Origin: a virus
Length of the DNA: 40,586 nucleotides
Strand: one strand, 5' to 3'
IMG/VR virus record: IMGVR_UViG_3300031753_000020
Location: 1 to 40,586 of that record
Every line of letters starts with the position of its first letter. Within the stretch, counting starts at the first letter, position 1. The notes under the pieces were generated by a model. The model was not told the DNA's origin. It did no database searches and saw only the letters and a program-made list of their open reading frames with translations. Position numbers and translations under genes: made by a program. Positions 4,835-37,275 of this stretch are shown in pieces.

Positions 4835-4856
4835 CCGAGACAGCAGGGAGCAGCAA

Positions 4857-5799: not shown

Positions 5800-5818
5800 T
5801 GCATTCCTTTAAGTCAAA

Positions 5819-5854: not shown

Positions 5855-5866
5855 TCTTATTCCAAG

Positions 5867-6585: not shown

Positions 6586-6645
6586 GGTGTTCTCCTATGA
6601 TTTTGACGCCAACACCATACGCTTTCAGTTGTGTCTTTGGCGCAA

Positions 6646-6667
6646 CACGGCCGAAAAATCAGCCGTG
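6646..6667 (-). terminator. Stem-loop over the stop codon of the 6659-6886 gene
   Basis: CACGGC (6646-6651) and GCCGTG (6662-6667) form a 6-bp GC-rich stem with a 10-base A-rich loop spanning the stop codon. No U-tract follows in the minus direction, so its effect on transcription into the Omp-like gene is uncertain. Confidence 0.35.
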
Positions 6668-8080: not shown

Positions 8081-8268
8081 GACGGCGTAACGCGGACCTC
8101 ACCCGACAGTGTGGCCCCAACCCCCTTGTTGGCACCCTCGGGGAATACAAAATCACCCTCGGTCGATGGATTGATCGCGGCCCATCGCATCGGGCAATCG
8201 GCACAGAAGATGTAATAATCCCCGGAGCCGAACCGCACTGTCGCATGTCTGCAATCTTCTTGTTTCAT
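8077..8268 (-). CDS. Small Cys-containing hypothetical protein
   Basis: 63 residues from ATG 8268 (GTG 8277 is an alternative three codons earlier). The N-terminal half has CRHATVRFGSGDYYIFCADC, a C-x-H...C-x2-C zinc-ribbon-like arrangement often seen in small phage proteins, followed by PMRWAAINP. Its stop forms an ATGA overlap with the BTLCP peptidase start, so it belongs to the lysis block. Function unknown. Confidence 0.65.
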   Translation of the reverse strand: MKQEDCRHATVRFGSGDYYIFCADCPMRWAAINPSTEGDFVFPEGANKGVGATLSGEVRVTPS

Positions 8269-21039: not shown

Positions 21040-21984
21040 TTATCCTCCCTCGTACTGGTCGGGCACGCGAGACGAGCCGTCCGACATCTTGCGCGCCCGC
21101 GCCATGAATATCTGATACTGCCCGAGCGCCGACGGGTTGGTGTTGAACATGCGCGCGGCGTCGGCGGCGCGCGACGAGTTCATGTAGCACTGATACGCGG
21201 CGAAGTACGGCACCGCGTCGCTCCACGGATAGGGGATGGCGTCGGGTGTTGCGTCGCTCGCCAGCGGCACCGGCAGGCAGGTCGCATCGATGTCGAGCGA
21301 CAATATTTGGCCGGGGATCGGAAACAGGTAGAACGAACCATTGACGCCCTGGCCGAATTGCGACCAGTACGCCGGAAAGTTCATGGCCGAGATCGAATAG
21401 ACGCGGCAATTGGCCTGGAACCAAGCCCACGGCCGCCAGCGCAGCATCGGCTTATAGACCGATCCCGAGCCCCATTGGCAGGCAATCGAACCAACGCCGA
21501 TCACACTCTGCACGCCTGAGATCGTGGCGGCCAGCGTGTTGAGCGTCGAGAATTGCACGGCCTCCTGCGTTGCGATGGCGGATGCGCTGTTGTCCACCGT
21601 CGCAGTCACCACGGCACCGCCATTGAAGCCGGTCGAATCGGTCACGGTAATAGCCGGTGCGGTGAGCCATCCCCAGCCGCCGCCCGTCAGCGTCACCGAT
21701 TGCACGATTCCGCCAGAGATTACCGCCGTGCCGAACGCCTGGTTGCCGGTGCCGGTAAAATTGAGTGTGCCGGTCGTGCCTGTATAGCCCGAGCCTCCCG
21801 AGCTCAGCGTCAGCGTGGTAATGACGCCGCCCGACAGCAGCGTGCGGACACACTCGCCCTCGCCAGCGACTTGGCTCCGCGCGATATTGACCGCGCTCTG
21901 CACCGAGGCGAGCGGGTAGGCTTGCGCGTTCGGATCGTGCAACAGAAATTGCGTCTGTTGGACGTATTGGGATTGCGTCGGCAT
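21040..21984 (-). CDS. Head-to-tail adaptor / tail tubular A-like protein with inserted beta module
   Basis: 314 residues from ATG 21984, which overlaps the preceding stop as TAATG; the open frame to 22227 lies over another gene and is rejected. The first 45 residues (QTQFLLHDPNAQAYPLASVQ, VNIARSQVAGEGECVRTLL) and the C-terminal ~140 (YSISAMNFPAYWSQFGQGVN, PYPWSDAVPYFAAYQCYMN) look like a short-tail adaptor. Between them sits an inserted Gly/Thr-rich module (GGSGYTGTTGTLNFTGTGNQ, GGGWGWLTAPAITVTD) with the same repeat type as the 23929-25116 protein. Confidence 0.65.
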   Translation of the reverse strand: MPTQSQYVQQTQFLLHDPNAQAYPLASVQSAVNIARSQVAGEGECVRTLLSGGVITTLTLSSGGSGYTGTTGTLNFTGTGNQAFGTAVISGGIVQSVTLTGGGWGWLTAPAITVTDSTGFNGGAVVTATVDNSASAIATQEAVQFSTLNTLAATISGVQSVIGVGSIACQWGSGSVYKPMLRWRPWAWFQANCRVYSISAMNFPAYWSQFGQGVNGSFYLFPIPGQILSLDIDATCLPVPLASDATPDAIPYPWSDAVPYFAAYQCYMNSSRAADAARMFNTNPSALGQYQIFMARARKMSDGSSRVPDQYEGG

Positions 21985-22208
21985 TATTGGTTGCCTTTTG
22001 TTTTCTGCAACCAATCGTCGCGACGGAACACCGATGGCCAAAACTTTCCAAGTTCGTGGCTGGGCGGCATAACCTCCGTCCATCTCTGAAACCAGATCGG
22101 CCACGGCCACTTGCCCACCCACAGAAATGCGCCAATGCGAGAAATAGCCAACATACACAACGGCGGCTCTTTGTCGGTGCCCGGATATATTTTGTGGAAA
22201 TGAATCAT
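21984..22208 (-). CDS. Small Trp-rich hypothetical protein
   Basis: 74 residues with a hydrophobic, Trp-rich middle (MLAISRIGAFLWVGKWPWPI). It overlaps the upstream gene by ATGA at 22205-22208 and the downstream adaptor gene by TAATG, so it is embedded in the operon with coupled translation, which is the main evidence that it is real. A loose membrane association is possible. Function unknown. Confidence 0.6.
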   Translation of the reverse strand: MIHFHKIYPGTDKEPPLCMLAISRIGAFLWVGKWPWPIWFQRWTEVMPPSHELGKFWPSVFRRDDWLQKTKGNQ

Positions 22209-23107
22209 GCGGCCTCCTGCAAATCACGACGCCGCCTCGCCATCACGCGGTCGGCCATGAGGTCGCAATAGGTCTCGGTCGAGCCGCGCAGCACAATGCG
22301 GTGCTTAAAAAAATGCCAGTGCATGGCGCTGGCGTGGTTGCAGCCCCACCAATACAGATAATCCTCGCTCATGGCGTCGGCCCGCAGCGCAAAATGCCGC
22401 GTGCGTGGGGAGATTTCCGCCTGCGCCAGCTCGTGCTTGCTGGTGACGACGTGAATCTCCTGCGGCGTAAAATTGTCCGGCAGGTCGCGGTCCACCGTAC
22501 CGTCGAATGTCAGGATGCGATCCTTGAGCACGGCAAACGGGTGCAGATGCCAAGCGCGCAATATCGTGTTCTCACCGTCGTCGAAATAAAGCGTGCTCGA
22601 CACCGCCGACAGACCGTGCGGATAGGTCGATTGCTGGGTGATGCTATGGGCGTGATGCCAAGCCCATTGCAGAAGATCGGCGGATTTCAGGACCGGCGGC
22701 GGGTTGCCGAACAACGGCCCCACCGTGCGGGTGCCGCCGCACATGATGAGCTTGGCGCCCATGCGGATACGCCGCTCGGCCGCCGCAAATGCCTCCACCG
22801 ATAGGATGTGGTCGCCGTTCTGGATAGCGACGATCTCGCCGATTCGGGCATCGTGCAGTGCCTCGCGGTGGGCGTTCGAGAATGCGCCATGGTAATTGTT
22901 CCGGTCTCTGACCGGCGGCGACCGAACCTCGACCTTGAGACCGTCGAACAGCGCGGCAAAACTCGGATCATCGGTGTGCAGCAACAATCGCGCCGGCAGT
23001 GAGCGACGCGATAGCGCCTCGCGCCACGACGGCCAGCAAAATTCCGCAAACCGCTTGCGGTATTGCTCGCCCCAACACGGCAGCGCGATCAGCCAGCCAT
23101 CAGGCAT
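22205..23107 (-). CDS. Glycosyltransferase-like protein
   Basis: 300 residues. The opening WLIALPCWGEQYRKRFAEFC, then PARLLLHTDDPSFAALF, follows the layout of GT-A-like transferases: a first strand ending in a Cys-Trp turn, a helix, then a strand with T-D-D. Residues in EIVAIQNGDHILSVEAFAAA occupy the place of the usual DxD metal motif as N-G-D. The C-terminal part is aromatic and basic. Similar phage and proteobacterial proteins are annotated as glycosyltransferases as I recall. It overlaps the DUF115 gene by eight bases; the two are probably partners. Donor and acceptor are unknown. Confidence 0.5.
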   Translation of the reverse strand: MPDGWLIALPCWGEQYRKRFAEFCWPSWREALSRRSLPARLLLHTDDPSFAALFDGLKVEVRSPPVRDRNNYHGAFSNAHREALHDARIGEIVAIQNGDHILSVEAFAAAERRIRMGAKLIMCGGTRTVGPLFGNPPPVLKSADLLQWAWHHAHSITQQSTYPHGLSAVSSTLYFDDGENTILRAWHLHPFAVLKDRILTFDGTVDRDLPDNFTPQEIHVVTSKHELAQAEISPRTRHFALRADAMSEDYLYWWGCNHASAMHWHFFKHRIVLRGSTETYCDLMADRVMARRRRDLQEAA

Positions 23108-23882
23108 CCAGCGGCTCCAAATTGACGAGGCTCGATTCTCGCAGCATGTGCGCGATCAAACCGTCGCCATAGACCTTGACCGACAGTTCGTGTTGGTGAT
23201 CGTGGTACATCGCCATAAACTCGCGAGCTTGGTGCAACAACTGCGGCGTCGTGGTGAACGTCGCGCCCATGTAATTGACCTGAATCGGCGATGGCCGATC
23301 CTGCATGTACGGATAGGCGTGCTCGAAGCCTCCCGCATAGGACGAATCGAAGCCGAACATATGCAGTTCGCGATAGCCCATGATGTGCGAGATCGCGATG
23401 GCGCGGAGTGTCACCGACGAGCCGCCACCCACCATCGGCTCGCCGTCGTGGAGTTGCGGCAGATCGTCGAACGGATGCCAGATATAGGCCTTGCAGCCGT
23501 CGAGCGCGTCGAACACCGACGGGTCGCAGGTCGAAGCCACCAGAAAGAACGTGCCGGGGTGAGGGCCCTTGTAAAACCGCGCTTGATCGGCGCCGGGGTC
23601 GAAAATAACGCAGTATTCCGGCACGACGTCGTGATCGATAAGCCAGCCATAGGCCGAGCCGCAGGCAATGACGATCTCGAATTTGCGGATGGTCTCGACC
23701 TGATCGGCGGCACTTGGGCCGCCGGACACCAGCGCGGCTCGGCCGAACCGCCCGAGCTGGCATTCCGGCAGGTCGATAAACCGCGGCAGACCTCGTGCCT
23801 TCGACGATTCCGCGTTGAGAATGCGTTGCTCGGCCGGCACCGCAATCGGCAACTCAAACCGCGCAATCGGGATTTCCTGCAT
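23100..23882 (-). CDS. DUF115 / MptE-like (motility accessory factor-type) protein
   Basis: 260 residues from ATG 23882. The motif order AALVSGGPSAADQVETIRKF, EIVIACGSAYGWLIDHDVVP, EYCVIFDPGADQARFY matches DUF115, a family (6-hydroxymethylpterin pyrophosphokinase MptE-like) that also includes Maf/FlaG10 proteins which transfer nonulosonic acids to flagellins. Later, MVGGGSSVTLRAIAISHIMG and LHMFGFDSSYAGG are typical. It lies inside the virion operon just downstream of a structural gene. A role in sugar transfer to a protein or glycan is supported by family and by the glycosyltransferase-like neighbour, not by substrate evidence. Confidence 0.75.
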   Translation of the reverse strand: MQEIPIARFELPIAVPAEQRILNAESSKARGLPRFIDLPECQLGRFGRAALVSGGPSAADQVETIRKFEIVIACGSAYGWLIDHDVVPEYCVIFDPGADQARFYKGPHPGTFFLVASTCDPSVFDALDGCKAYIWHPFDDLPQLHDGEPMVGGGSSVTLRAIAISHIMGYRELHMFGFDSSYAGGFEHAYPYMQDRPSPIQVNYMGATFTTTPQLLHQAREFMAMYHDHQHELSVKVYGDGLIAHMLRESSLVNLEPLDA

Positions 23883-23928
23883 GGCTCTATCACGGCCACG
23901 CAAGCCCCGCGGGCCGCTCCCTATCTGA

Positions 23929-25116
23929 TCAAATGGGTTGCACCCACGACGTGTCGGTGATGCCACCGACGGTGATAGTGACGACTGCGGTAGTGGTCCC
24001 CAATCCCGTACCGCCGGCGACGACAAAGCCGTTCGGCACCGCCTGCAGTCCAAACCCGGCATCGGCCACCACCGCATTGACGGACGTGATCTTGCCGCCG
24101 GACGTGGTAACGCCAGTGATCCACCCCGCCTGCGGCGCGGTCAGTGCCGTATCGGCGATCGGACCGGCCACGTTGGACGCGCGCGTGCCGCCGACGATGG
24201 TGGGCGCGACAATGATCAGGAACGGCTGCGCATTGCCGTAGCCCGCTCCCGACAACCCGGAATTCGGCGAGAAGCCCGTCACCACGAAATTCATGACCGC
24301 AGTGGCCGCCAGACCGGAGCCGGGGAAGCCAGACGCCACCGATGGGGTGAGCGTCGGAACCGCCGTAACCGCGGTGCCGACGTTGGTGGGGTAGAGCGCG
24401 GTCACAGTACCGGAACCGGCCAGCGTAGCGTTGACCGTAAGCACACCGCCGGTGCCGACTGCATCGCGGGGGTCATTGACCAGTGTGATAGCCGGCGCCG
24501 TGACATAACCCGCACCCTGGTTGGTGACCGTGACGGCGTTGATCGCACCGGCCGAGATCGTGCAATAGCCGGTGGCTTGCACGCCGCCGGTCGGCGGGGC
24601 GTCGAACACGAGGTTCGGTGGATAGAGATAACCAGAGCCGCCTGCCGTAATAGCGACGGTCGAATTGATCGCACCGCCGGTCACGGCCTGCCAAGTCGAG
24701 GCGCCGGCCGATGCCGCCACGGTGATGCCGTTGGCCGCGGCGCCGATGCCGTTGGTGTAGAGTGAGCCGGCGTTGGTGATCAGCGCGCCGATGGCACAAC
24801 CGGTGAGGTTGGCAAGGCGATAGTTACCGCCGTCGGAATTGATCGGCACCGGCAACAGCGCCGTATCGGCGCCGATGGTGCGGTAAATTCCGGTCACCGG
24901 GTCGTACCATTGGATCGACGTGTATGGCCCTGGCGTGATCAGCCAAGTGTTGGCCGGCAATTGCCAGAATTCGCCGGCCTGCAGCGTCACCGCGTTGGAC
25001 CCGCGCGACGGATTGAATTGCTGCCACGGCACGACTGATTCGTTCGGCAGCGGGCCGCCGAGCGCGCCGGTCAGATTGAACGGGATACCTCCGCCGCCGA
25101 TGCGAGGGATGGCCAT
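23929..25116 (-). CDS. Virion protein with GSGY-type beta repeats
   Basis: 395 residues from ATG 25116, with GGAGGGG upstream; the earlier in-frame start at 25143 overlaps the capsid gene. After an N-terminal domain (VTLQAGEFWQLPANTWLITP, YTSIQWYDPVTGIYRTI) come repeats of about 45 residues, each with G-x-G-Y-x-x-x-P-x-[ILV] and a following G-x-[ILV]-x-x-V strand (AGGSGYLYPPNLVF, NQGAGYVTAPAITLV, GAGYGNAQPFLIIV, ADAGFGLQAVP). Its place directly downstream of the capsid gene suggests a head decoration or head-fibre protein. Confidence 0.65.
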   Translation of the reverse strand: MAIPRIGGGGIPFNLTGALGGPLPNESVVPWQQFNPSRGSNAVTLQAGEFWQLPANTWLITPGPYTSIQWYDPVTGIYRTIGADTALLPVPINSDGGNYRLANLTGCAIGALITNAGSLYTNGIGAAANGITVAASAGASTWQAVTGGAINSTVAITAGGSGYLYPPNLVFDAPPTGGVQATGYCTISAGAINAVTVTNQGAGYVTAPAITLVNDPRDAVGTGGVLTVNATLAGSGTVTALYPTNVGTAVTAVPTLTPSVASGFPGSGLAATAVMNFVVTGFSPNSGLSGAGYGNAQPFLIIVAPTIVGGTRASNVAGPIADTALTAPQAGWITGVTTSGGKITSVNAVVADAGFGLQAVPNGFVVAGGTGLGTTTAVVTITVGGITDTSWVQPI

Positions 25117-25117
25117 G

Positions 25118-26200
25118 TTAGAACGCCCCTCCGGTAATGCCACTCAAACGCATCTGAGCGGCTGGTTTTGAGCAGATCACGTTGAACGCTACAATTAAGA
25201 CTCCGATGTTGGCGATCTGCAGGTTTGGAATCGCGCTGTAGAAGCCCGAGAACGCAAACGGCGCGTCCTCGCTCATGTAGAGCGCCAGATAGCGCGAGTT
25301 GAGCAGGTACGCCGTGCCCTTGGGGCAAAACGGGTCCATGAAGATCGGCGTGGTGCCGAGCATCAGACCACGGAAGCCCGCATTGATCAGGTCATCGCGA
25401 CCGTATTTGGAGCCGGGCGTGGTGTAGAACGTCTCCGCGTTCATGAAATCCTGCATCAGCGTGGTCCAATCGCCGGGATTCATGACCGCAAAATCGGGTG
25501 CCTCGCCGCCGCCGCCGAGCGTGGCCTTGTAGGTCGGATTCGACGCGCCAGCGGTCGCCGTGCCGGCCGACGCCTGGATCAGGTAGCGCAGGAACGCCTG
25601 CCGGGTCAGGATAGCGCCGGCCGTGCCGAGCGTGACGAGCTGGCCCTGCCAGAACGATTGCCCGGCTGCGGTGCGCGACAGGCCGCCGTAAGTCGTAACG
25701 TTGGTGCCGTCGTCGGTGGCCTCGTAGAGATTGTCCAATTGCTGCTGGCCTGGAATGAGCTGGTTGTTCTGGCTGGCGAGCAATGAGGCCGAGATCGATT
25801 GCACGGCAACAGTCTTGGCGTCGGCCATGCGGGCTTTCAGGATCGGCACCACGACTTCCGACGACTGGATCAGCGCCTCCATTCCCATGAACGGGATCGG
25901 GGTCACGCCGAGCTTGAGGTTGAATTCGGCGTTCTGCGCTGCGGTCAGAACCTGCGGCTGCGGAAACACGCCGGAATAATCCGACCACGAGAATTGGACG
26001 TAGCTCGCGCCCTGCACCGGGATGGTGACCTGAGAGACACCGCCGCGGGCACGCTGCGCATTGCGCAGCAGCAGCGACAATAGCGGGGTCGCCTTGTATA
26101 TCTGGACTACGAGCCTGGGAATGAAAGCACGTCGTGTCAGGGCTGAAAGTTCAGACCCGACAGCGCCTGCCGGAACTATGCCGACCCCTAATTGCGTAAT
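25118..26200 (-). CDS. Major capsid protein, probable ATT start
   Basis: 360 residues if read from ATT 26200. The core MGMEALIQSSEVVVPILKAR, PDFAVMNPGDWTTLMQDFMN, FRGLMLGTTPIFMDPFCPKG and LNSRYLALYMSEDAP is typical of HK97-fold capsids in this type of phage, and the gene follows a scaffold-like gene. The first standard start, TTG 26080, would remove ELSALTRRAFIPRLVVQIYK and ATPLLSLLL, a segment that belongs to the conserved N-terminus. No ATG, GTG or TTG occurs between the in-frame TAG at 26210-26212 and 26080. AGGAGG (26206-26211) lies five bases from ATT. Confidence 0.85.
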   Translation of the reverse strand: MTQLGVGIVPAGAVGSELSALTRRAFIPRLVVQIYKATPLLSLLLRNAQRARGGVSQVTIPVQGASYVQFSWSDYSGVFPQPQVLTAAQNAEFNLKLGVTPIPFMGMEALIQSSEVVVPILKARMADAKTVAVQSISASLLASQNNQLIPGQQQLDNLYEATDDGTNVTTYGGLSRTAAGQSFWQGQLVTLGTAGAILTRQAFLRYLIQASAGTATAGASNPTYKATLGGGGEAPDFAVMNPGDWTTLMQDFMNAETFYTTPGSKYGRDDLINAGFRGLMLGTTPIFMDPFCPKGTAYLLNSRYLALYMSEDAPFAFSGFYSAIPNLQIANIGVLIVAFNVICSKPAAQMRLSGITGGAF

Positions 26201-26205
26201 TTCTG

Positions 26206-26211
26206 CCTCCT
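26206..26211 (-). promoter_or_regulatory. Perfect ribosome binding site AGGAGG before ATT start
   Basis: On the minus strand AGGAGG is followed by five bases (CAGAA) and ATT at 26200-26198, the apparent first codon of the capsid gene. This is the strongest Shine-Dalgarno sequence in the late operon, fitting the most abundant virion protein. Confidence 0.75.
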
Positions 26212-26231
26212 ATGGCCCCACGTTGGCGAAG

Positions 26232-26765
26232 TCACTTCGCCGCCGCTTGCTCCTGAAAAAACTTCAATGCCTCCTGCTCCGCGAACGCATCCTCGTCCTC
26301 GAACAGGAGTTTGGTGTTGGCTTCCTCGGTCTTGTGGCCGAATCCCCACGACGTGCCGGCAAACGACGACGGCTGCTGCGGCTTGGGCGGCGGATTGAGT
26401 TTTTCATAATAGGCGGCGGCGGCGTGCGGATCGGCGATCGAGCGATCGACCATCAGCTTTTTGATCTTGTCGATGCCGTCGTCGGAATAGCCGCCGTTTG
26501 AGCGCAGGTCGTCGAAGGCGGCGGCGAGCTTGCCATCTTCGGAGGCCGTTTTCTGAGCCGTGAGGAAAGTATCAAGCTTGTCGCCGATGGCCTTGATCTC
26601 GTCGTGAATTGGCGCCTCAAGATCATCGGTGATCACCACTTCGGGGTGGAGCTTCTTGATCTCGCGCTCGACCGCCCGTTTGGTTTTCGGGCTTGTGGTC
26701 AAGCTGTTCAAAAGCTGCTGGCTCTTGCGCAGCGTGTCGAGTTCGGCGTCGTCGATCTCGGCCAT
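26232..26765 (-). CDS. Scaffolding-protein-like
   Basis: 177 residues from ATG 26765, which overlaps the previous stop as TGATG. The protein is highly charged and helical (DDAELDTLRKSQQLLNSLTT, EIKAIGDKLDTFLTAQKTAS, GIDKIKKLMVDRSI), with a flexible Pro-rich stretch (NPPPKPQQPSSFAG) and an acidic/Gln-rich C-terminus. Size, composition and position directly before the major capsid gene fit an internal scaffolding protein that would template capsid assembly and then leave; no sequence family assigned. Confidence 0.65.
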   Translation of the reverse strand: MAEIDDAELDTLRKSQQLLNSLTTSPKTKRAVEREIKKLHPEVVITDDLEAPIHDEIKAIGDKLDTFLTAQKTASEDGKLAAAFDDLRSNGGYSDDGIDKIKKLMVDRSIADPHAAAAYYEKLNPPPKPQQPSSFAGTSWGFGHKTEEANTKLLFEDEDAFAEQEALKFFQEQAAAK

Positions 26766-26944
26766 CACTTCGACCCTACGCTCTCAACGTGTTTGATCGT
26801 CATTTCCGGCGCCGACGGCGACGCCTCGCCCTTGGGCAGCGCGGTGGCGCGGGCGCCGAAGCCCATGTGGTCCATCGGCACTTTGACGATCTGCGGGTCG
26901 GACTCGATGATTCGGTTGTAGGTCGGGCCGGGAAACTGAGCCAT
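26765..26944 (-). CDS. 59-residue hypothetical head-region protein
   Basis: An ORF too short for ordinary calling: ATG 26944 behind AGGAGATCACC, stop TGA 26767-26765 overlapping the scaffold start. The product begins MAQFPGPTYNRIIESDPQIV and ends MTIKHVESVGSK. The strong ribosome site and coupling make it a likely real gene; role unknown. Confidence 0.7.
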   Translation of the reverse strand: MAQFPGPTYNRIIESDPQIVKVPMDHMGFGARATALPKGEASPSAPEMTIKHVESVGSK

Positions 26945-26956
26945 GGTGATCTCCTG

Positions 26957-27349
26957 TTAAGCTGCCGCGGGCTGTTGCTGCGGGGGCGCCGGTGGCTGGC
27001 CGCCGCCTGAGCGCATGACCGCCTGCATCATGCCGGATTGCTGAGCTTGGGATTGCAGGCCGCGAAGTGCCTGCTGCTGAATGCCCGGCACTTCGGCCGA
27101 GGGCGGCACGACCTTGCTGATCTTGCCGATGGCGTCATAGACGCCCTTGTATTCGTCGGAGCCTGGATTGAGGTTTGGCAGTTCGGCGATTAGAAGTTTC
27201 AACGCCTCCCGCACCCGCGCGAGCGCGTTGGCGTTTGTCCCCGGTGAGCCGGTTGGAACACCAACCGGCGAGGCCCCCATCGGGGGCTGTCCGGCAGAAG
27301 CGGAAGGCGTTGGTTCAGGCAACGGATTGCTCCGCTGCCGGGAGGGCAA
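26957..27349 (-). CDS. Small head-region protein with uncertain start
   Basis: 130 residues if started at TTG 27349; ATG 27280 would give a shorter form. The N-terminal third is Pro/Ser-rich, the middle (LARVREALKLLIAELPNLNP, EYKGVYDAIGKISKVV) is helical, and the end is Gln/Pro-rich (PPAPPQQQPAAA). The same frame runs upstream through a TAA (27361-27359) into the 13-codon ORF at 27400, so the real N-terminus is unclear. It lies between portal and scaffold and is probably a minor head protein. Confidence 0.6.
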   Translation of the reverse strand: MPSRQRSNPLPEPTPSASAGQPPMGASPVGVPTGSPGTNANALARVREALKLLIAELPNLNPGSDEYKGVYDAIGKISKVVPPSAEVPGIQQQALRGLQSQAQQSGMMQAVMRSGGGQPPAPPQQQPAAA

Positions 27350-27358
27350 CGGTGTCGG

Positions 27359-27400
27359 TTACTTCCGACGACCGCGCTTGTGCTTCCGGCGTCTTGCCAT
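27359..27400 (-). CDS. 13-residue Arg/Lys-rich leader ORF
   Basis: ATG 27400 has AAGGAGAG six bases upstream and encodes MARRRKHKRGRRK then TAA. It is in the same frame as the following 27349-26957 ORF, with only three codons between the TAA and the TTG. It could be a translated leader peptide, or the 5' end of the next gene broken by a nonsense codon. Confidence 0.5.
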   Translation of the reverse strand: MARRRKHKRGRRK

Positions 27401-27501
27401 TTCGTTCTCTCCTTGTTGAAGGGCTGCGCCGCTGGGATCGAAATTACCGCAGCGCAGGAGTTCACGCGACGCGCGAAATTACGCCTGCATCGTTTTGAAA
27501 G

Positions 27502-29160
27502 TCAAGGCTTCTTCTTGCCCTTGCCACCGCCGAGCAACAGTTCGGGATGCTGCGCCACGAGTTTGGCCTGCATTTCGGCCTTGGCCTTGGCCTTCAAAAT
27601 CAGCATGTCCTCATGCGGCGGGTGCGTCAGCATGATCGTGTCCTCGTCGTCGATAACGCCCAGTCTTTTCAAGGCGACGGCGAGGTTTCGGGTGTCCTCT
27701 TGGAAGGCCGGCGACGAGGTATGGCTGTCGATGGTCAGGCGGTTGTCGTCGGGCAGTTGCGCGAGAATAAACTGCTGTTTTTTCTCGGTCTCCATCACTT
27801 CGGCTTCCTTGGCCTGCAACAACTTGAGCGCAAATTCGCCGAGCTCCACCGCCTGCCGCTCGACCAATAGCGCGCGATCGCGCATTCGCGGCGAGGAATT
27901 GCGCGCCAAGGTCTGCGCCTGCGCCTGCGAGCGCACGCCCTGCTCGCCCTGACCCATCAGCACGGGCGTAAACCCGGCAACGTCGTCAAAGTATTGGATG
28001 GTGGCGTTAATGCGTTCGACGAGGATTTCCTGCGGCACGTCGGGCGATAGGTTTTCAATCTTGGCGTTGGGATTGTCCTCGGTGATCTTGCCGCCTGGCC
28101 GGCGCAGTGCATTGTATTTTTCCTCGGTGACGCCGGTAAATCCGATCAGAGCGCGGGGCGGATCGGCTTTAAGCGCAGTGACTTCCTGCAGTTTCCTCAG
28201 TTGCGAGTTTAACAAGTCCTGCAGCTTATAGACCTGCGCCACCTCGCTCATGCCCCAGAAATAGCCGTCCACTTCGTTGGGAGAAACTTTGGTATAGGGG
28301 TGCTCTCCTTTGACGCCGGACAGGTTGCGACGCTTGATGTCGCCCTCGATCACGATGTCCTCGACCATCCGGATGGTCGTGTAGTCCTGCCGCTCGTCGT
28401 CCACGACCCACAATTCATCGAGGCGCACGAGGCGCCGCGCCACATCGGGCGACAGCATCGGCTTTGGCACCGACGAAAAATTGACCATGGCCTGGCCGCC
28501 GGATTGCGTGGTCGAGACCGGCCCGGTGCCGCCGACCACGATCTGCATTAGGTAATCGTCCTGCTGCGGTGGGTTTTCGTCGGCGCGGCTTTTGAGGGTC
28601 TTTTCGACCTCGGCCATGATCTGCCGGCGCTCAGGGTGATCGGCAATGGTGCGGCGGAACGCCGCTGGCGTCATGTAGGTGGTCTCGACAAAGGCATCCT
28701 GACGGTCGAGATCGGCGATGTCCTCACGCAACACGCCAAACTGCTCGGGCTGCACGATCCACGGTTCTAGCCCGTCGTGGCCCCACAATTGCTTGACCAG
28801 CGCGGCACCCTTGACCAGCCCCCAAGTGACGGCCGTGGACAGCGCCATATCGACGTTGCAGCGGTGAAATTCGCGGTTGAGGTAGCGGGCACCGGCCGCA
28901 AGCAAATCGTGATCTTCGGCCTTTAGCGACAGGTCGCCTTCGAGCGCGTAGCGGACATCGGTGGGAGAGAACAGGAACGAGGATAGCCGGTCAATATGGC
29001 TATACGTCCGGTTATAAACTGCTTGGGCGCCGTCCGACGTACCGGCGTAGAAATACGCCATCCACAAGCGGTTGAGATCGGTGCGGGCTTCGCGGCTGGC
29101 GAAGCATTCGCCGATCAGGTCTTTCGCCCAGCCGCCGATATTCCGGCGTGGTAAGCGCAT
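27502..29160 (-). CDS. Portal protein
   Basis: A 552-residue protein with the typical features of podovirus portals: an N-terminal helical region (WMAYFYAGTSDGAQAVYNRT, YSHIDRLSSFLFSPTDVRY), a beta clip region (FVETTYMTPAAFRRTIADHP), a conserved stem (EVAQVYKLQDLLNSQLRKLQ) and a late segment with FDDVAGFTPVLMGQGEQGVR that is common to this portal group, then a coiled C-terminus (ILKAKAKAEMQAKLVAQHPE). It forms the dodecameric channel at one capsid vertex and docks the terminase. GAGGC lies before the ATG. A candidate -10 box TATGAT lies 20 bp upstream but without a good -35. Confidence 0.88.
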   Translation of the reverse strand: MRLPRRNIGGWAKDLIGECFASREARTDLNRLWMAYFYAGTSDGAQAVYNRTYSHIDRLSSFLFSPTDVRYALEGDLSLKAEDHDLLAAGARYLNREFHRCNVDMALSTAVTWGLVKGAALVKQLWGHDGLEPWIVQPEQFGVLREDIADLDRQDAFVETTYMTPAAFRRTIADHPERRQIMAEVEKTLKSRADENPPQQDDYLMQIVVGGTGPVSTTQSGGQAMVNFSSVPKPMLSPDVARRLVRLDELWVVDDERQDYTTIRMVEDIVIEGDIKRRNLSGVKGEHPYTKVSPNEVDGYFWGMSEVAQVYKLQDLLNSQLRKLQEVTALKADPPRALIGFTGVTEEKYNALRRPGGKITEDNPNAKIENLSPDVPQEILVERINATIQYFDDVAGFTPVLMGQGEQGVRSQAQAQTLARNSSPRMRDRALLVERQAVELGEFALKLLQAKEAEVMETEKKQQFILAQLPDDNRLTIDSHTSSPAFQEDTRNLAVALKRLGVIDDEDTIMLTHPPHEDMLILKAKAKAEMQAKLVAQHPELLLGGGKGKKKP

Positions 29161-29219
29161 GGTGCCTCAAAAGGCAAATCATACTGCATCGCGTGACACA
29201 GCAATGGGTTGCTTAAATC

Positions 29220-29240
29220 AGTTGAGGTAAAATATCAACT
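29220..29240 (-). promoter_or_regulatory. Stem-loop before the portal gene
   Basis: AGTTGA (29220-29225) and TCAACT (29235-29240) form a perfect 6-bp stem with a 9-base AT-rich loop, overlapping the stop of the 29239-29781 gene. The 78-bp gap 29161-29238 holds nothing else definite. Confidence 0.35.
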
Positions 29241-29781
29241 ATCCGCGAGCGATGACGTGGATCGGCGTTTTAAGCTGCCCGCGCTTCCCCGCGTCGTGCA
29301 GTAGCTTCATGGGGTTTAGATTTTCCGCGTTGGCGGTCGCGGTCGAAGCCTTGGCGGCGGACAGCAACTCCGCGGCCGGAATATTCGCCAACGGCGTCTG
29401 GCCGCCGCTCCAAAACGATTTGGCCATTTCGGCCTGCACGGGTGTCAGCGGCGGCGCGCCCGTTGTCTGTTGGGCGTGTTCGGACACCTGGCGGATTTCC
29501 GCGTCGATCTGCGCTCCGGTCGCGGGCGCAGACGGCATCGCGGCAATATCCCCCTCGCGCTGATGGTCGTTGATGTTGGACAGCCCAAAATCCTTCTCAA
29601 GAATCTGCTGCGTCACGTCCATGGCGCGGGATTTGTTGCCGATGATCGAAAAAGACTGTGGACGCCACTCTAAAACAGTGCAGCACCGAGGACATTCCGG
29701 CGCCGGATCATTCATGCCTTGGGTGACCTCAAATTCGAGGCCGCAATCGTCGCAGGCAAACGTGCGAATCACCGGCATCAT
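29239..29781 (-). CDS. Zinc-ribbon protein before the portal gene
   Basis: 180 residues from ATG 29781, which forms an ATGA overlap with the preceding stop; the frame upstream to 29895 overlaps that gene. The N-terminus is an FmdB-type zinc ribbon: FACDDCGLEFEV followed by PECPRCCTVLEW (Cys pairs ~10/13 and ~30/33). The remainder is helical and contains MDVTQQILEKDFGLSNIND and LTPVQAEMAKSFWSGGQTPL. Proteins with this arrangement sit near the portal in other phages as I recall; role unknown, perhaps small-terminase-like or head assembly. Confidence 0.65.
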   Translation of the reverse strand: MMPVIRTFACDDCGLEFEVTQGMNDPAPECPRCCTVLEWRPQSFSIIGNKSRAMDVTQQILEKDFGLSNINDHQREGDIAAMPSAPATGAQIDAEIRQVSEHAQQTTGAPPLTPVQAEMAKSFWSGGQTPLANIPAAELLSAAKASTATANAENLNPMKLLHDAGKRGQLKTPIHVIARG

Positions 29782-30023
29782 CCAACTCCGTGTTGCTGCT
29801 CGAACGAGATTTGCAGCCGCGACCCGATGGCCTCTCTGATAGCGGCCGCTATTACTTCGGCTTCCTTGCGCGACGGAATAGGCCAGAATTGGCATGTGAT
29901 GATATGCTGACCGGCACCGGGATAACCTGCCGGCACGATCCTGATGTCGAGCGACACCGAGACTTGGCTATCCTTCGGGGTGTCCCATTGTGGAACTATT
30001 AGTTCGCGGTTGGTGTTGTTCAT
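29778..30023 (-). CDS. Small hypothetical protein
   Basis: 81 residues, alpha/beta (DSQVSVSLDIRIVPAGYPGA, HIITCQFWPIPSRKEAEVIA). The start at 30023 is only 15 bp from the divergent membrane gene start at 30039, leaving no independent promoter between them. Its stop overlaps the zinc-ribbon gene (ATGA). Not recognised. Confidence 0.6.
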   Translation of the reverse strand: MNNTNRELIVPQWDTPKDSQVSVSLDIRIVPAGYPGAGQHIITCQFWPIPSRKEAEVIAAAIREAIGSRLQISFEQQHGVG

Positions 30024-30038
30024 AGCGGAGGATTGCCC

Positions 30039-30281
30039 ATGTGTTTTTCGTTAGCGTGGATTGAACAGCTCTTGGTGTGGCTGGTCATTGTTTGCGCCAT
30101 CATCGCCATTCTGCGGCTATTGCTGCCGTGGGTCGCCGCACAGATCGGCGGCATCATCCCTGCGGTTATCAACATCGTGCTGTGGGCGGTGATCGCCATT
30201 TTTGTGATCTATTTCTGCTTTGCGCTCATGTCGTGCTTGGCGGGACCGGGCCTGCCATTGTTTCCGCATCGCGGTTTCTAG
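30039..30281 (+). CDS. Two-span membrane protein on the opposite strand
   Basis: 80 residues from ATG 30039 with GCGGAGG seven bases upstream. Two long hydrophobic spans: LVWLVIVCAIIAILRLLLPW (residues ~12-31) and AVINIVLWAVIAIFVIYFCF (residues ~42-61). It is the only plus-strand gene inside the long minus-strand virion operon. Its 3' end overlaps the neighbouring minus gene antisense by 56 bases (30226-30281). Similar small membrane proteins occur in Rhizobiales genomes and phages as I recall. Likely an autonomously expressed cargo gene; function unknown. Confidence 0.7.
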   Translation: MCFSLAWIEQLLVWLVIVCAIIAILRLLLPWVAAQIGGIIPAVINIVLWAVIAIFVIYFCFALMSCLAGPGLPLFPHRGF

Positions 30282-30585
30282 GAATCCCTGGCGGGATATG
30301 GCCGCTGCGGTCGTTGGCATCGTCGTAGTATCCGGCACGCTCCAGGCAATCGGCATAGTCGGCCAGCAAATCAGATAGCGCGCCGCGGCCGCGATCGGTG
30401 ATCTGCGTCGCTTTCGGCGGAAACACGTTGCCCACGGAACGCAGATAGCCGCCGGTCACCAATATGCCGAGTGTTCTGCGGCGCGTGGTATGCGGGAGCG
30501 CGTCGAACGGCACGATCTTGCCGTCCATGTGTTCGATCAGCACCTCGCGCAACCCGACAACAAACGGCTCGTATTTTGACAGCAT
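30226..30585 (-). CDS. Hypothetical protein with winged-helix-like middle
   Basis: 119 residues with GAGGAA before the ATG. The segment PHTTRRRTLGILVTGGYLRS and ATQITDRGRGALSDLLADYA looks like a small winged-helix fold (helix, wing, T-D-x-G-R-x-A-L helix). The C-terminus is Pro-rich and overlaps the divergent membrane gene antisense. It may bind DNA and act as a late regulator, but this is a fold impression only. Confidence 0.55.
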   Translation of the reverse strand: MLSKYEPFVVGLREVLIEHMDGKIVPFDALPHTTRRRTLGILVTGGYLRSVGNVFPPKATQITDRGRGALSDLLADYADCLERAGYYDDANDRSGHIPPGIPRNRDAETMAGPVPPSTT

Positions 30586-30594
30586 CGTTATTCC

Positions 30595-31452
30595 TCACGA
30601 GTACGGCACGTCGCATTTTGCACAGAGCGGCAGATGCGCGATGTTCTTGGCGTTGAACGCCGCGACGGTTGACTGGTACGCTTCGCCGCCGCGCATTTCG
30701 GCGAGCGATTGCGTCATGATGTTGCCGATTGCCATGACGCCTTCGGAATCGCGGCACGCGCACGCCGACACCTTGCCGTCGTCATAGACCACGACGTAAT
30801 CGGTGAGCCACGGGCACATGTGCAGCGTCATGGTCTCAAAGCCCGGCCGCAGCGATTTGCCGTCGTTGACGAGGCCGGCGAAGTTGTCGGGGTAGGTGAG
30901 GCTGATGCGCTCACGGCAGATGCCTAACGATTGGATAAATTGCATAGTCCGGGCCTCGTCAGCTTGCGAATAGACGACGCCGCGCACGGTAATATCGCGC
31001 TCGCGGTCGAACGCCGCAAAGGTCCAATTGAGCTCACGCAGCTTGGCGGCGGTTTTCTCGAAGTCGGCGCCGACATAGATGCGCTCGTAGCTTTCCTTGT
31101 CGTACCCCGAAAACGAGCATTGGATCGTCAGTTGCCCGGTCGTCGCCGCCGTCGCCAATTCTCGGATGATGCGCGGCGATAGCGGCGTGCAGTTGGTGTT
31201 GATATGGGCATCGAGAGACGCCGAGATCGCGCGGTTGATGAAGGGAATGGCCTTCGGCGCCAGCAGTGGCTCGCCCTGTGCGGCGGTGAGTGCCAGCCGC
31301 CCGATGCCATGCTCGCGCATTTGCTCGATCACGCGGTCAAACACTTCGTCGCTCATGAATCCGGTATTGCGCGACCACGCTTCGTATCCGCACATGACGC
31401 ATTGCAGATTGCAGCGCCGGGAGATTTGCGCGAATACGGTGGTGGGCATCAT
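30595..31452 (-). CDS. Radical SAM protein with SPASM-like C-terminus
   Basis: 285 residues from ATG 31452, which forms an ATGA overlap with the preceding gene's stop. The radical SAM motif C-x3-C-x2-C is present as CNLQCVMC (Cys14, Cys18, Cys21) and would hold the [4Fe-4S] cluster that cleaves S-adenosylmethionine. The AQGEPLL segment supplies the GxE-like SAM-binding turn. Near the end, CPWLTDYVVVYDDGKVSACA, then CRD and a final LPLCAKC, give extra cysteines as in SPASM/twitch domains with auxiliary clusters. Such enzymes modify peptides or carbohydrates. Its neighbour two genes up is a nucleotide-sugar dehydratase, suggesting sugar chemistry; the substrate is unknown. Confidence 0.85.
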   Translation of the reverse strand: MMPTTVFAQISRRCNLQCVMCGYEAWSRNTGFMSDEVFDRVIEQMREHGIGRLALTAAQGEPLLAPKAIPFINRAISASLDAHINTNCTPLSPRIIRELATAATTGQLTIQCSFSGYDKESYERIYVGADFEKTAAKLRELNWTFAAFDRERDITVRGVVYSQADEARTMQFIQSLGICRERISLTYPDNFAGLVNDGKSLRPGFETMTLHMCPWLTDYVVVYDDGKVSACACRDSEGVMAIGNIMTQSLAEMRGGEAYQSTVAAFNAKNIAHLPLCAKCDVPYS

Positions 31453-31697
31453 CGCTTTCGCTCGTCCTCTAAGTCGAGCAGATCGTTTAGCGCGTTGTGG
31501 AATGCGTTGCGCGCGTCGATATTTTTTCTCCACATTGGCGCGTTCTCTTGCCGACGTTGGTTATTCTCTGCCATCCATACAAGAACGTCCTCGAAACTTA
31601 ACCGCATCTCTATTGCTAGACGACCGATCCGTTGCTCGTCGTCAGGCGTGACCACGGCAACAAATTCCTCAATGTCCACCGTTGCCGGTCTGGCCAT
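31449..31697 (-). CDS. Small helical hypothetical protein
   Basis: 82 residues, charged and helical (RIGRLAIEMRLSFEDVLVWM, NAFHNALNDLLDLEDERKR). It lies between the dehydratase (one base upstream) and the radical SAM gene (ATGA overlap), so it may assist one of them, but no motif is recognised. Confidence 0.6.
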   Translation of the reverse strand: MARPATVDIEEFVAVVTPDDEQRIGRLAIEMRLSFEDVLVWMAENNQRRQENAPMWRKNIDARNAFHNALNDLLDLEDERKR

Positions 31698-31698
31698 G

Positions 31699-32709
31699 TC
31701 ACACTCCGATCGGCTGCGGCACCGGCTGGCGTTTGATGTCCTCGACCAGTTGCGCCCTCAGAAACTCCAAGTGCGCGCGGTGCCATGCGATCATGTGGGG
31801 GATGCCGGTGTCGAAGGACACGCGCGGCGTCCAACCGAGATCGCGTTCTGCGGCTTGGCTGTCGAGCCAGTAGCGGGCGTCGGTGCCGCGGCGTCCGCTT
31901 TCGTCGTGGAACAGTTGCGTCTCATGGATGCCTAACGCCTTGGCGATCATGCAGACGACCTCGCGCGTTTTGACCGGCACGCGCGGGGAGAGATTATAGA
32001 TGCGGCCGAGCGGCGCCTGCGACGCGACCGACGCGATACCGGCCGCCATATCGGACACGTGCATATACGATTTCTCGCCTTGGCCGCAGCCGTACAGCGG
32101 CATTTGCTTGCCGATAAGGCCGTACATGATTGCCTTGGGCACGATGCGAAACAATTGCTGCCCCTCGCCGTAGGTGTTTGACGGTCGCACGATGTTCATG
32201 GGGAACATCGTCCGGGCGTGATAGGCGATGAGGAAGTGATCAAACGCGGCTTTGGACGCGGCGTAGGGCGATGTCGGCCGCAGCAGGTCGGATTCGCGGG
32301 CCGGCGTATCGACCGAGCCGTAAACCTCGCCGGACGAAATCTGCACGAATCGTCGCAGCCACGGCGCGTTGCCGTGAAGCTGCTCGACCAGCCGGACCAG
32401 CGCCGTGCAATTGGTGTCGAAGTATTTGCTTGGGTTTTGAAACGACGCGCCGGACTCGCCTTCGGCGGCGAAGTTGATAAGGACCGTTGGCTTTTCGGAG
32501 CGCAGCAGCGCCATGAGTTCGTCGGTCTTGCGGATGTCCTGCACCGCAAAAATGCACTGATCGCGCCTGCCGATATTGAGCCGCCAGTTCCAGGCGGGAC
32601 CGTGGCGGCCGACGCCGACGACGCGGGTGGCGATGTTGCGGTCGAGTAGATGCAACGCGGTGTGTTGCGCAAAGCAGCAGCCGGTGCCGAGAATAGCAAA
32701 GGTGGTCAT
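31699..32709 (-). CDS. NAD-dependent epimerase/dehydratase (extended SDR, nucleotide-sugar type)
   Basis: 336 residues, the normal length for nucleotide-sugar 4,6-dehydratases and epimerases. The Rossmann glycine motif is G8-T-G10-C-C-F13-A-Q-H, a variant of GxxGFxGxH. The active site is SSGEVYG (Ser125-Gly131) with the catalytic Y149-A-A-S-K153 pair, followed by NIVRPSNTYG and a C-terminal sugar-binding region. In RmlB-type dehydratases the first motif reads T-D-E; here Asp is replaced by Gly127 while Glu128 is kept, so the reaction may be nearer to GDP-mannose dehydratase or an epimerase. Its start overlaps the preceding stop (ATGA). It presumably supplies a modified sugar for the glycosyl-transfer genes further down the operon. 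Confidence 0.85.
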   Translation of the reverse strand: MTTFAILGTGCCFAQHTALHLLDRNIATRVVGVGRHGPAWNWRLNIGRRDQCIFAVQDIRKTDELMALLRSEKPTVLINFAAEGESGASFQNPSKYFDTNCTALVRLVEQLHGNAPWLRRFVQISSGEVYGSVDTPARESDLLRPTSPYAASKAAFDHFLIAYHARTMFPMNIVRPSNTYGEGQQLFRIVPKAIMYGLIGKQMPLYGCGQGEKSYMHVSDMAAGIASVASQAPLGRIYNLSPRVPVKTREVVCMIAKALGIHETQLFHDESGRRGTDARYWLDSQAAERDLGWTPRVSFDTGIPHMIAWHRAHLEFLRAQLVEDIKRQPVPQPIGV

Positions 32710-32996
32710 GACTTTTGCACCACCGCTAAGTCAACATCTTGGCTGATGATCCCCACTTCATTATTTTTGCCCGATCTGTCCATCGCGCCTAGCACATTGC
32801 TATGCAACATATAGCGTTGTTCCTCAGTCCAATCGGGCGGGCAACGCAGCACGAGTATATCGCCGGGACCAAAAAACAATTTTACTTGATGCAAAGCGGT
32901 ATCTCGATTGAAAGCCAAGCGCCAATCCGTAAAATTGATATGCAGCATGTAACTCGTTCGTACGATGGTGATTATCAAGCATATATCCAAAATCAT
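32706..32996 (-). CDS. Small hypothetical protein after the terminase
   Basis: 96 residues from ATG 32996, which overlaps the terminase stop as ATGA. The N-terminus is hydrophobic (MILDICLIITIVRTSYML); a second ATG just after it begins MLHINFTDWRLAF. The core KLFFGPGDILVLRCPPDWTE is a compact alpha/beta pattern. Its stop overlaps the dehydratase start. Not recognised. Confidence 0.6.
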   Translation of the reverse strand: MILDICLIITIVRTSYMLHINFTDWRLAFNRDTALHQVKLFFGPGDILVLRCPPDWTEEQRYMLHSNVLGAMDRSGKNNEVGIISQDVDLAVVQKS

Positions 32997-34906
32997 ATGA
33001 CCAACCCCGCATCCTTCCACGCCGCATCGACCTGCCGCGACTCGCGCTCGCCGTTCTTGCGATTGAAAAAACTGCCGATGATGTTGGCGACCAGCGTGGC
33101 CTGCGGGTTCTTGTCGCCCTCGGTCTCGACCTTGTTGCAAATCTCGTAGGTCAGGCCCTCAAGCATCATGCGCGAGCGCACCCAATCGACGTATGCCTTG
33201 TTGGCGAGGCCGAGCGCAAAGGTGCGGTCGTCGCGGTTCTTGCCGGACGCGCCGATCTCAAAACCTTCCTGCACCACCTTTTCCATTTCCCAAAGGAGCT
33301 GCAGCGAATTGACCCGCAGGATGCCGAGCGCATAGTTGTCGCGCAACTGGTTCATCATCGGCGGCTTGGTGTTCTGGTTGGTCTGAAAATTATAAACGTA
33401 ATTCCCGGCCATCGAATCCGGCCGCTTATAGAGATACCAGCGCACCGACTCGAATATCTCCTGCATTCCGGCCGAGGTCGCCTGCGCCTGCAGGTAGCCG
33501 AAGTCCATGAGCTGCTTGAGATGCCGCAGCGCCGGCATCAGGGCTGCCCCCGGCCCCTGCAGCTCGGCGTTGATGATGACGTTCTTGTAGGCGCCAGCCA
33601 GGTGCGCCATGACCCAGGCGAGCTGATAGGTCTCGGGGATCGACGTGGCGTACTCGGCGACCTGCACGATACGATCGCCGTAGCAGCGCACGATCTCGAT
33701 GGCGTGGTTATCGTTGTCGGAGCGCCCGTAGGCCGGATCGACGCCCATGGCGTACTGGCCGAGCGGATGCGGCTGTTCCCAGATGCGCAGCTCGGCCTCG
33801 TGCGGCCGGGACACCTGCTCGATCTCGGTGGCCAGAAAATTCTCGCCCATATGGTAGCGGTAGCCGAGGAAGCCGCGTTTTTCGTCCTTGATTTTCTTGA
33901 TGTCGTCGGCGACGCGGCGCAGCGGAAAGAACGAGTGGCCGGACAGAATGAACGCCTGCTCGGGCGTCCACGGAAAATTCTGATTCATCAAATCTTCGTT
34001 GGACAGTTGCGTGGTGCGATACCAGCGGTGCCACGCGATCTGGCCGGGCTTGATCTTGTAGTGAAACCGCGTCTCGACTTCCTGGCACAGCCGGATTTCC
34101 TCATCATCCATCTGGCCGTCCCAATAGTGCGCGTATTCGGCGCTGTCGGACGCAAACGAATAATCCTCCTTCATGTACCAGCCGATGAAAAACGCTTTCT
34201 GCGTCATCGGGTCGTCGATGGCTTCCTTCCACAGATCGTACCAGTGGTTATAGCCGTGGGCGGTGCTTTCCCAGATGTAGAGTCTGTGAGGATGCTTTTG
34301 AGCAAGTGACGCCTTAAGTGACGCAATTCCCTCATCCGACGCCCAGCTTCCGACTTCGGTTGCGTGGAGGAAATTAATTGCGCGCGATTGGCCGAGCGTT
34401 GTATTGCCCCGCTTCGTACCGGCGACCAAGTAATCGAGACAAGAGCCGTTATTGAGTTCCAGCAAATTTCTATTGTGTCTACGTATGCCGACGCGGAGAC
34501 CTTTGGGAAGGCTTTCGATGTATTGCTCGATGAGGACACGAAACTTCTCCCTGTTCGGTTCGGTGTCGGTGACCAGCGCGCCCTGAATCTTGTCGTGCAC
34601 CGACAGCCAGAACACGTCGATCGCCAGCGAGATCGTCGAAATCCCGAGCTGCCGCGCCTTCAAGTTCTTGAAGTCGTGGATGCCGTTGTCGAGCCCGGTG
34701 CAGATTTCCTCAAGAAAGCGCCGCTGCCCGCCGTACAAAATCTGCGACAGCGCCGTCCGCTGATTGCCGACCAACTCCTTGGAACTGATCGACATGTAGG
34801 TGATGAATTCCAGAAACACGGGAAGCCAACGCTGATTGGTCTCGCCGTCGATCTTCGGCAGCGACGGGTCGCGCCGCAGCGGAATTCGCTTAATAGGCAA
34901 GCGCAT
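32993..34906 (-). CDS. terL: Terminase large subunit
   Basis: 637 residues from ATG 34906 (GGAGG nine bases upstream). The ATPase motif is the TerL variant of Walker A, KARQLGIST (residues ~83-91), with a Walker B-like INFLHATEVGSW (~177-188) carrying the catalytic Glu184. The nuclease domain starts with MGVDPAYGRSDNDNHAIEIV, where the Asp residues bind metal. The protein packages DNA through the portal and cuts concatemers. Its first 17 bases overlap the small zinc-protein gene in front. No separate small terminase subunit is obvious; the zinc-binding or replication-side genes are candidates. Confidence 0.93.
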   Translation of the reverse strand: MRLPIKRIPLRRDPSLPKIDGETNQRWLPVFLEFITYMSISSKELVGNQRTALSQILYGGQRRFLEEICTGLDNGIHDFKNLKARQLGISTISLAIDVFWLSVHDKIQGALVTDTEPNREKFRVLIEQYIESLPKGLRVGIRRHNRNLLELNNGSCLDYLVAGTKRGNTTLGQSRAINFLHATEVGSWASDEGIASLKASLAQKHPHRLYIWESTAHGYNHWYDLWKEAIDDPMTQKAFFIGWYMKEDYSFASDSAEYAHYWDGQMDDEEIRLCQEVETRFHYKIKPGQIAWHRWYRTTQLSNEDLMNQNFPWTPEQAFILSGHSFFPLRRVADDIKKIKDEKRGFLGYRYHMGENFLATEIEQVSRPHEAELRIWEQPHPLGQYAMGVDPAYGRSDNDNHAIEIVRCYGDRIVQVAEYATSIPETYQLAWVMAHLAGAYKNVIINAELQGPGAALMPALRHLKQLMDFGYLQAQATSAGMQEIFESVRWYLYKRPDSMAGNYVYNFQTNQNTKPPMMNQLRDNYALGILRVNSLQLLWEMEKVVQEGFEIGASGKNRDDRTFALGLANKAYVDWVRSRMMLEGLTYEICNKVETEGDKNPQATLVANIIGSFFNRKNGERESRQVDAAWKDAGLVI

Positions 34907-36819: not shown

Positions 36820-37275
36820 TCATGCCGCCGGCGCGTTAAAGCAAATCGCGCAATGCGCGGGGCAATACGGCCGGCCGATCTCGGTGACCGCGCCGCAGTA
36901 GAGCGTCTCGGCAGCGATCGCGTCGCCCGCGATGTAGCGGCAGGTGTTGTCGGCGAGGTCGAAGATCGTGATGCCGGGGCCGGACGGCACCGCAGCGGCC
37001 ATGCGGAGCGCGTAGCGGCGCCCGAGCGTCGGCTGGGCCGATAGTGCAGCCGCGCGCTTGCGGCGCATCCACGCCACGCGGCGGGCCGTTGCGGCACCAG
37101 GGTCCGCGGCCTTGCGCTCCCAGCTTGTCGTCATGCCCATGCGGTGCAGTTTTCCGATGATCGAGCTGCGGGTGCGGCCGAGACTTAAACCAATTTGTGA
37201 GGCCGAACTACCGTCCAGTGCCATTTGCTTCAAAGTCGATAATTCTGTGGTTTGCCAAGGTGTTACGTCTGACAT
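36820..37275 (-). CDS. gcrA: GcrA-family cell-cycle regulator
   Basis: 151 residues. The N-terminal part, W-x-x-x-E-L-S-T-L-K-Q-M-A-L-D-G-S-S-A-S-Q-I-G followed by RTRSSIIGKLHRMGM, matches the GcrA DNA-binding domain, whose family signature is L-K-x-L-W...G-x-S-A-x-x-I-A...R-N-A-V-I-G-K-x-H-R-L. The C-terminal part (NTCRYIAGDAIAAETLYCGA, RPYCPAHCAICF) fits its Cys-rich sigma-factor-contacting end. In Caulobacter, GcrA recognises methylated GAnTC and works with sigma-70. A phage copy could retime host S-phase genes or steer phage promoters. It lies between the repressor-like gene and the replication genes. Confidence 0.82.
   Translation of the reverse strand: MSDVTPWQTTELSTLKQMALDGSSASQIGLSLGRTRSSIIGKLHRMGMTTSWERKAADPGAATARRVAWMRRKRAAALSAQPTLGRRYALRMAAAVPSGPGITIFDLADNTCRYIAGDAIAAETLYCGAVTEIGRPYCPAHCAICFNAPAA

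Follow-up and report, generated by a model that had tools for sequence, protein, structure and literature searches.

Do four sugar-related genes dispersed through the late operon of a phage work together in one pathway, or do they belong to separate units? The question is raised by IMG/VR record IMGVR_UViG_3300031753_000020; the window analyzed here is the whole of that record, 40586 bases. An initial annotation had read genes for an MptE-like (DUF115) protein, a glycosyltransferase-like (GT-like) protein, a radical SAM-SPASM protein, and a nucleotide-sugar short-chain dehydrogenase/reductase (SDR) among the virion genes, and all four reading frames are indeed present, on the minus strand. Our analysis points, at about even confidence, to two separate glycan-chemistry modules in one late operon, a resident transferase and a swappable cargo. 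The MptE-like and GT-like genes would make up the first and appear to belong stably to this phage group. The SDR gene, an open reading frame (ORF) of 82 amino acids (aa), and the radical SAM gene would make up the second, as exchangeable cargo in a slot between the terminase and portal genes. These genes and their neighbors are given below, with contigs of related phages cited as L003, L004, and so on.

21040..22227, minus strand: virion structural protein, downstream of the GT-like gene (phrog_19630, 6.9e-7; phrog_460, 1.8e-5); the same neighbor in L004, with 1 extra gene between
22205..23107, minus strand: putative GT-like protein, partner of the MptE-like protein, 300 aa; a 40% identical homolog follows the MptE-like gene in L004
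23100..23882, minus strand: MptE-like/DUF115 protein with a predicted Maf-type glycosyltransferase domain, 260 aa (PF01973, 5mu5 profile and model matches); in place in L004 and L011
23929..25143, minus strand: virion structural protein, upstream of the MptE-like gene (phrog_701, 1.2e-10; phrog_5342, 7.4e-9); the same neighbor in L004 and L011
27502..29160, minus strand: portal protein, homologous to genes annotated as portal in L005/L006; downstream border of the slot
30595..31452, minus strand: radical SAM/SPASM (twitch-like) protein, 285 aa from ATG 31452 (PF04055, PF13186)
31449..31697, minus strand: 82-aa ORF between the SDR and radical SAM genes, with no convincing family; shares an ATGA with the radical SAM start
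31699..32709, minus strand: extended SDR, nucleotide-sugar 4,6-dehydratase/epimerase-like, divergent, 336 aa (PF16363, PF01370)
32993..34900, minus strand: terminase large subunit, aligning with annotated terminases and those of relatives at 38-70%, start picked from the alignment; upstream border of the slot

Gene Content of Related Phages

A search with the terminase returned L011 at 74%, L003 and L004 at 70%, then L012-L014 at 51-55%, followed by many others near 40%. L004 carries homologs of both the MptE-like (43%) and the GT-like (40%) proteins at the same place between virion genes, together with a PhyH-like gene between the two (PF05721, 0.0005, just below cut-off) and an unclassified gene after the GT-like one. 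The MptE-like homolog of L011 (55%) is likewise in place, and the contig ends soon after it. The position is kept in the closest relatives (terminase 70-74%), in 2 of the 2 contigs that reach the MptE-like gene and the 1 that reaches the GT-like gene; because homologs at 43% and 40% keep their place in a relative, chance is no issue.

The distribution of the other two genes is different. Neither the SDR (PF01370) nor the SPASM domain (PF13186) was found in any of the 19 other relatives searched (0/19 for each), among which the GT-like gene occurs in L004 only, and a PF01973 search of the other 26 records found nothing. Many of these records are fragments, for each of which absence is not proof, and the best evidence comes from L004 (42 kb). 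Further IMG/VR scans for the MptE-like and GT-like proteins returned L004 and L011 only. Relatives of the SDR were not found in IMG/VR by exact patterns, nor were relatives of the radical SAM and GT-like proteins in genome contigs by pattern scans; the GenBank phage collection held no match to the radical SAM, MptE-like, or GT-like protein, and plasmids held none to the MptE-like or the GT-like protein. The initial annotation had suggested that the four genes could serve a single pathway and proposed their co-occurrence in related phages as a check. They occur independently: both the MptE-like and GT-like genes in L004, and the MptE-like gene in L011, stand without the SDR or the radical SAM gene, and because of this separation one pathway is not our leading view. 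L004, the closest long relative, also has, at a distance from the slot, a second radical SAM-like stretch of a non-SPASM kind (G001 4065-4142), which at 20.7 bits stays below cut-off.

The slot between terminase and portal spans ~3.8 kb in the window, compared with 0.7-2.3 kb in the relatives measured. It holds a related class I methyltransferase gene in L011, L004, and L003, in the opposite orientation in L004, and another methyltransferase gene in L006. Twelve relatives near 40% have a DUF5672 gene there, several of these being 85-91% identical to one another, and most relatives have just two small genes and no large cargo. Base composition was also tried as a mark of recent gene gain and gave no signal. 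A small hydrophobic ORF (30033-30281, plus strand) runs opposite to the operon; with respect to the terminase, the matching segment of L011 (4742-4906) is turned the other way from that in the window. As the methyltransferase genes of L004 and L011 likewise differ in orientation, the slot cargo seems to flip.

The Maf-Like Gene and Its Partner

The DUF115/MptE-like label of the initial annotation held, and the protein proved to be of the Maf type. It matches PF01973 at 1.8e-19 (70.6 bits, above the curated cut-off of 34.6), and a profile of the protein and two relatives retrieves a single PDB sequence, the Magnetospirillum Maf 5mu5 (1.7e-5). With a predicted model built from three sequences (predicted local distance difference test score, pLDDT, 67.5; predicted template modeling score, pTM, 0.72), Foldseek ranks 5mu5 first (1.1e-7). 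VIA-align aligns 210 residues with Maf 244-508 at Z 17.5 and a root-mean-square deviation of 3.2, the next families being archaeal HPPK (Z 13.3) and sialyltransferases dependent on cytidine monophosphate (CMP) sugars (Z 9-10). The Maf pfam01973 domain resembles the sialyltransferase Cst-II, and Maf enzymes use CMP-N-acetylneuraminic acid (CMP-Neu5Ac) and 3-deoxy-d-manno-oct-2-ulosonic acid (Kdo) donors when the native donor is missing (PMC11339370). The phage protein has in common with the Maf flagellin glycosyltransferases the fold and motifs of the central catalytic domain over 210 residues, whereas it has neither their N-terminal nor their C-terminal domain, has no flagellin nearby, and is encoded in a virion operon. 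At 260 aa it covers just 5mu5 residues 244-508 and is not a full-length three-domain Maf (~600 aa); the model indicates that it is a stand-alone Maf-type glycosyltransferase domain. Among the viral entries of BFVD, 15 MptE-like matches reach E 0.001 or better, mostly from uncultured phages; the proteins of uncultured Caudovirales phages have the fold of the window protein at up to 30% identity, although many are larger (400-714 aa). The most likely start, ATG 23882, lies 46 bases past the upstream gene, and the coding sequence overlaps the GT-like gene by 8 bases.

The glycosyltransferase-like label given to 22205-23107 was not confirmed. Family searches in Pfam, PHROGs, NCBIfam, and PDB returned zero matches, and hhalign comparisons with DUF5672 and with proteins of L095 and L094 gave nothing. 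An AlphaFold model from two sequences was too poor (pLDDT 45) for its fold matches to be used. Read by eye, residues 1-125 would fit a GT-A arrangement, with an AHRE motif, a conserved GTRT, and, ahead of a helix, an NGD.

The SDR and Radical SAM Genes

The nucleotide-sugar SDR was borne out by its matches to PF16363 (2.5e-40, 139.4 bits) and PF01370 (1.5e-37, 129.7 bits), both above cut-off, and by its best solved relatives, which are dTDP-glucose 4,6-dehydratases (6bi4, 9.2e-39). Its score against the equivalog for that activity, TIGR01181, is 183.9 bits, about half the cut-off of 365.1. In alignment with phage relatives the active-site Ser, Glu, Tyr149, and Lys153 are kept (Y149xxxK153), STDE is changed to SSGE, and TGGAGFIG to LGTGCCFA. 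RmlB and its phage copies (Justusliebigvirus, cyanophages) have the extended SDR fold, the active-site Tyr/Lys, and the Glu in common with the window protein, but the latter is only 28-31% identical to them, with an altered NAD motif and SSGE instead of STDE, and it has no rml partner genes, while L102-L104 carry fuller sugar loci. As judged by these comparisons, the protein is a divergent nucleotide-sugar SDR, a relative of RmlB.

The radical SAM-SPASM assignment was also upheld, with PF04055 at 1.5e-11 (45.2 bits, cut-off 29.5) and PF13186 in the same protein at 6.6e-9 (36.4 bits, cut-off 21.5). The start at GTG 31533 was replaced by ATG 31452, the most likely one, which overlaps the stop of the 82-aa ORF as ATGA. 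The CxxxCxxC motif is C14-x3-C18-x2-C21, and the auxiliary-cluster cysteines, C213-x17-C231-x45-C277-x2-C280, have the spacing of BtrN. A profile of the protein and four distant relatives finds BtrN first (1.4e-25), then BlsE, and aligns the BtrN auxiliary site as C-x17-C-x44-C-x2-C. BtrN is a twitch enzyme that oxidizes an amino-cyclitol and whose auxiliary cluster has four cysteine ligands (PMC9012708). The window protein is thus like BtrN and other twitch enzymes with sugar-like substrates in length and in auxiliary spacing (C-x17-C-x44/45-C-x2-C), but its sequence similarity to BtrN is low and the aminoglycoside pathway does not accompany it. Some weak plasmid relatives (22-28%) lie in glycan loci, namely a rhamnose locus in Brachyspira, a UDP-galactopyranose mutase locus in Streptomyces, and a nucleotide-sugar locus on one Azospirillum plasmid (n=1). 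NCBIfam matches are all far below cut-off and mostly restricted to the radical SAM core, so that none identifies the protein as an equivalog that matures ribosomally synthesized and post-translationally modified peptides. The initial annotation had counted a peptide-modifying family with its own substrate nearby as speaking against a sugar role; we find instead a short protein with a single auxiliary-cluster domain, next to an 82-aa ORF that matches no precursor family.

Proposed Roles and Alternative Explanations

With its Maf fold and its location amid virion genes, the MptE-like enzyme is best read as glycosylating a virion protein in the cytoplasm with a donor from the host. Most likely cytoplasmic, it would take a sugar, either a nonulosonic acid or Kdo, from a host-made CMP donor and attach it to a virion protein, and its GT-like partner would probably add or position a further residue. 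The SDR would probably oxidize, dehydrate, or epimerize a nucleotide sugar, on which the radical SAM enzyme would probably carry out a radical oxidation or rearrangement. What the analysis shows is the identity of the genes other than the GT-like one, the Maf fold in a predicted model, the layout of the radical SAM cysteines, and the separate occurrence of the modules; from these we infer the substrates, the donor, the acceptor, and whether the modules cooperate at all. None of the four proteins has a membrane-like segment (0/4). A narrower form of this proposal, in which the stand-alone Maf-type enzyme O-glycosylates capsid or tail with host Kdo or nonulosonic acid while the SDR and twitch radical SAM enzyme of the slot make a sugar variant new to virions, is in our estimate improbable.

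Several observations weigh against two modules with these roles. Close relatives number three (n=3), all except L004 being short fragments. For the GT-like protein, neither family nor fold searches lend support. The SDR has neither the canonical TGxxGxxG nor the Asp of STDE, and its activity is therefore uncertain. The BtrN match was obtained with distant bacterial proteins in the profile; on its own, the window protein leads to BlsE, over the N-terminal part only. Besides the plasmid relatives named above, the radical SAM protein has others that lie outside glycan loci. Finally, the SDR and radical SAM genes resemble core genes in codon use and G+C and so give no sign of a recent arrival.

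We think it unlikely, if still worth considering, that the genes remodel the host surface (lipopolysaccharide or capsule) against superinfection or readsorption and do not act on the virion. Such a role was proposed for pelagimyophage glycosyltransferases (PMC7029224), and this phage also encodes a BTLCP protease and, by sequence reading, an outer-membrane-like protein, which suggest other surface effects. Against it, those Maf-type enzymes whose function is known act on protein (PMC11339370), the MptE-like and GT-like genes lie between virion genes, and late expression would presumably leave little time to alter the surface. A little less probable is the proposal of the initial annotation, one pathway in which all four genes serve to build an unusual sugar and fix it to capsid or tail. 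All four genes do share the late operon and strand, and two of them encode nucleotide-sugar or sugar-transfer enzymes, but the two modules lie ~7 kb apart, L004 carries the MptE-like and GT-like genes, and L011 the MptE-like gene, without the SDR or radical SAM gene, and no synthase, cytidylyltransferase, or aminotransferase was recognized in family scans of the window proteins, nor were any nonulosonate pathway genes.

Many SPASM enzymes act on peptides, and the 82-aa ORF, directly upstream of the radical SAM gene and ATGA-coupled to it, could be the precursor of a ribosomal peptide that this enzyme matures; however, at 285 aa with one four-Cys auxiliary site the enzyme has no space for a leader-binding domain, and the ORF has no Cys and matches no precursor family, which leaves this explanation very improbable. 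Radical SAM enzymes and glycosyltransferases take part in DNA modification in phages, and the SDR and radical SAM enzymes might, with the GT-like protein, modify the phage DNA. We regard this as the least probable account; in the window proteins that were scanned, we recognized none that was thymidylate-synthase-like, of the TET/JBP kind, or a hydroxymethyl-pyrimidine kinase.

Phage Genome and Host

The late operon is read on the minus strand from ~35,000 down to 5,900 and contains the terminase, portal, major capsid protein, and tail/fiber genes. Other features of the window are as follows.

25118..26080, minus strand: major capsid protein (phrog_9953, major head protein, 1.3e-18)
32706..32948, minus strand: small ORF before the SDR gene, ~80 aa, without an NCBIfam family; its stop overlaps the SDR ATG as ATGA (32706-32709)
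36820..37275, minus strand: GcrA-like cell cycle regulator (PF07750, 3.8e-21 in the protein set scanned; ORF assigned by sequence reading)

The GcrA regulator suggests that the host is probably an alphaproteobacterium. A BTLCP protease gene (7625-8080, minus strand; PF06035, 2.1e-30) adjoins a phage lysozyme gene (7134-7640). The Caulobacter BTLCP protein HvyA blocks capsule formation and thereby permits phage infection (PMC4241560), and BTLCP was the commonest auxiliary gene in river viruses (PMC11283719). The product of 5884-6585 (minus strand) reads as having a signal-peptide-like start and an outer-membrane-like sequence, matches nothing in Pfam or NCBIfam, and is possibly a phage-borne outer membrane protein. 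The early region includes a DHH/DHHA1-type phosphoesterase-like protein (2128-3036, plus strand; PF02272, 9.3e-8). A tandem repeat of 27 bases recurs at both ends of the window (1-230 and 40380-40586), and the terminal 66 bases are identical, through either a true terminal redundancy or an assembly effect caused by the repeat.

Precedents and Implications

The initial annotation had taken a radical SAM enzyme in such a pathway to be new for a phage; precedents exist. Host-recognition regions of pelagimyophages hold glycosyltransferase and radical SAM cassettes (PMC7029224), and an unrelated phage contig, L095 (G003, 52-8152), has genes for GT9, GT2, an SGNH-like protein, two radical SAM proteins, and several methyltransferase-like proteins ahead of its tail genes. 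The pelagimyophage cassettes resemble the window in placing variable glycan and radical SAM genes among structural genes; pelagimyophages are large myoviruses, in contrast to this 40-kb genome with its cargo beside the terminase. Virion glycosylation by phage enzymes is described for mycobacteriophages (Freeman 2023, as cited in PMC11256854), and the likeness, as far as that citation goes, lies in phage-encoded glycosyltransferases and glycosylated virion proteins.

The finding mainly extends known kinds. The exchangeable slot beside the terminase is a practical place to seek further phage sugar-modifying enzymes. If the MptE-like and GT-like module glycosylates virions, small phages would need just one or two genes, a simple means, to decorate their particles with host CMP-sugars.

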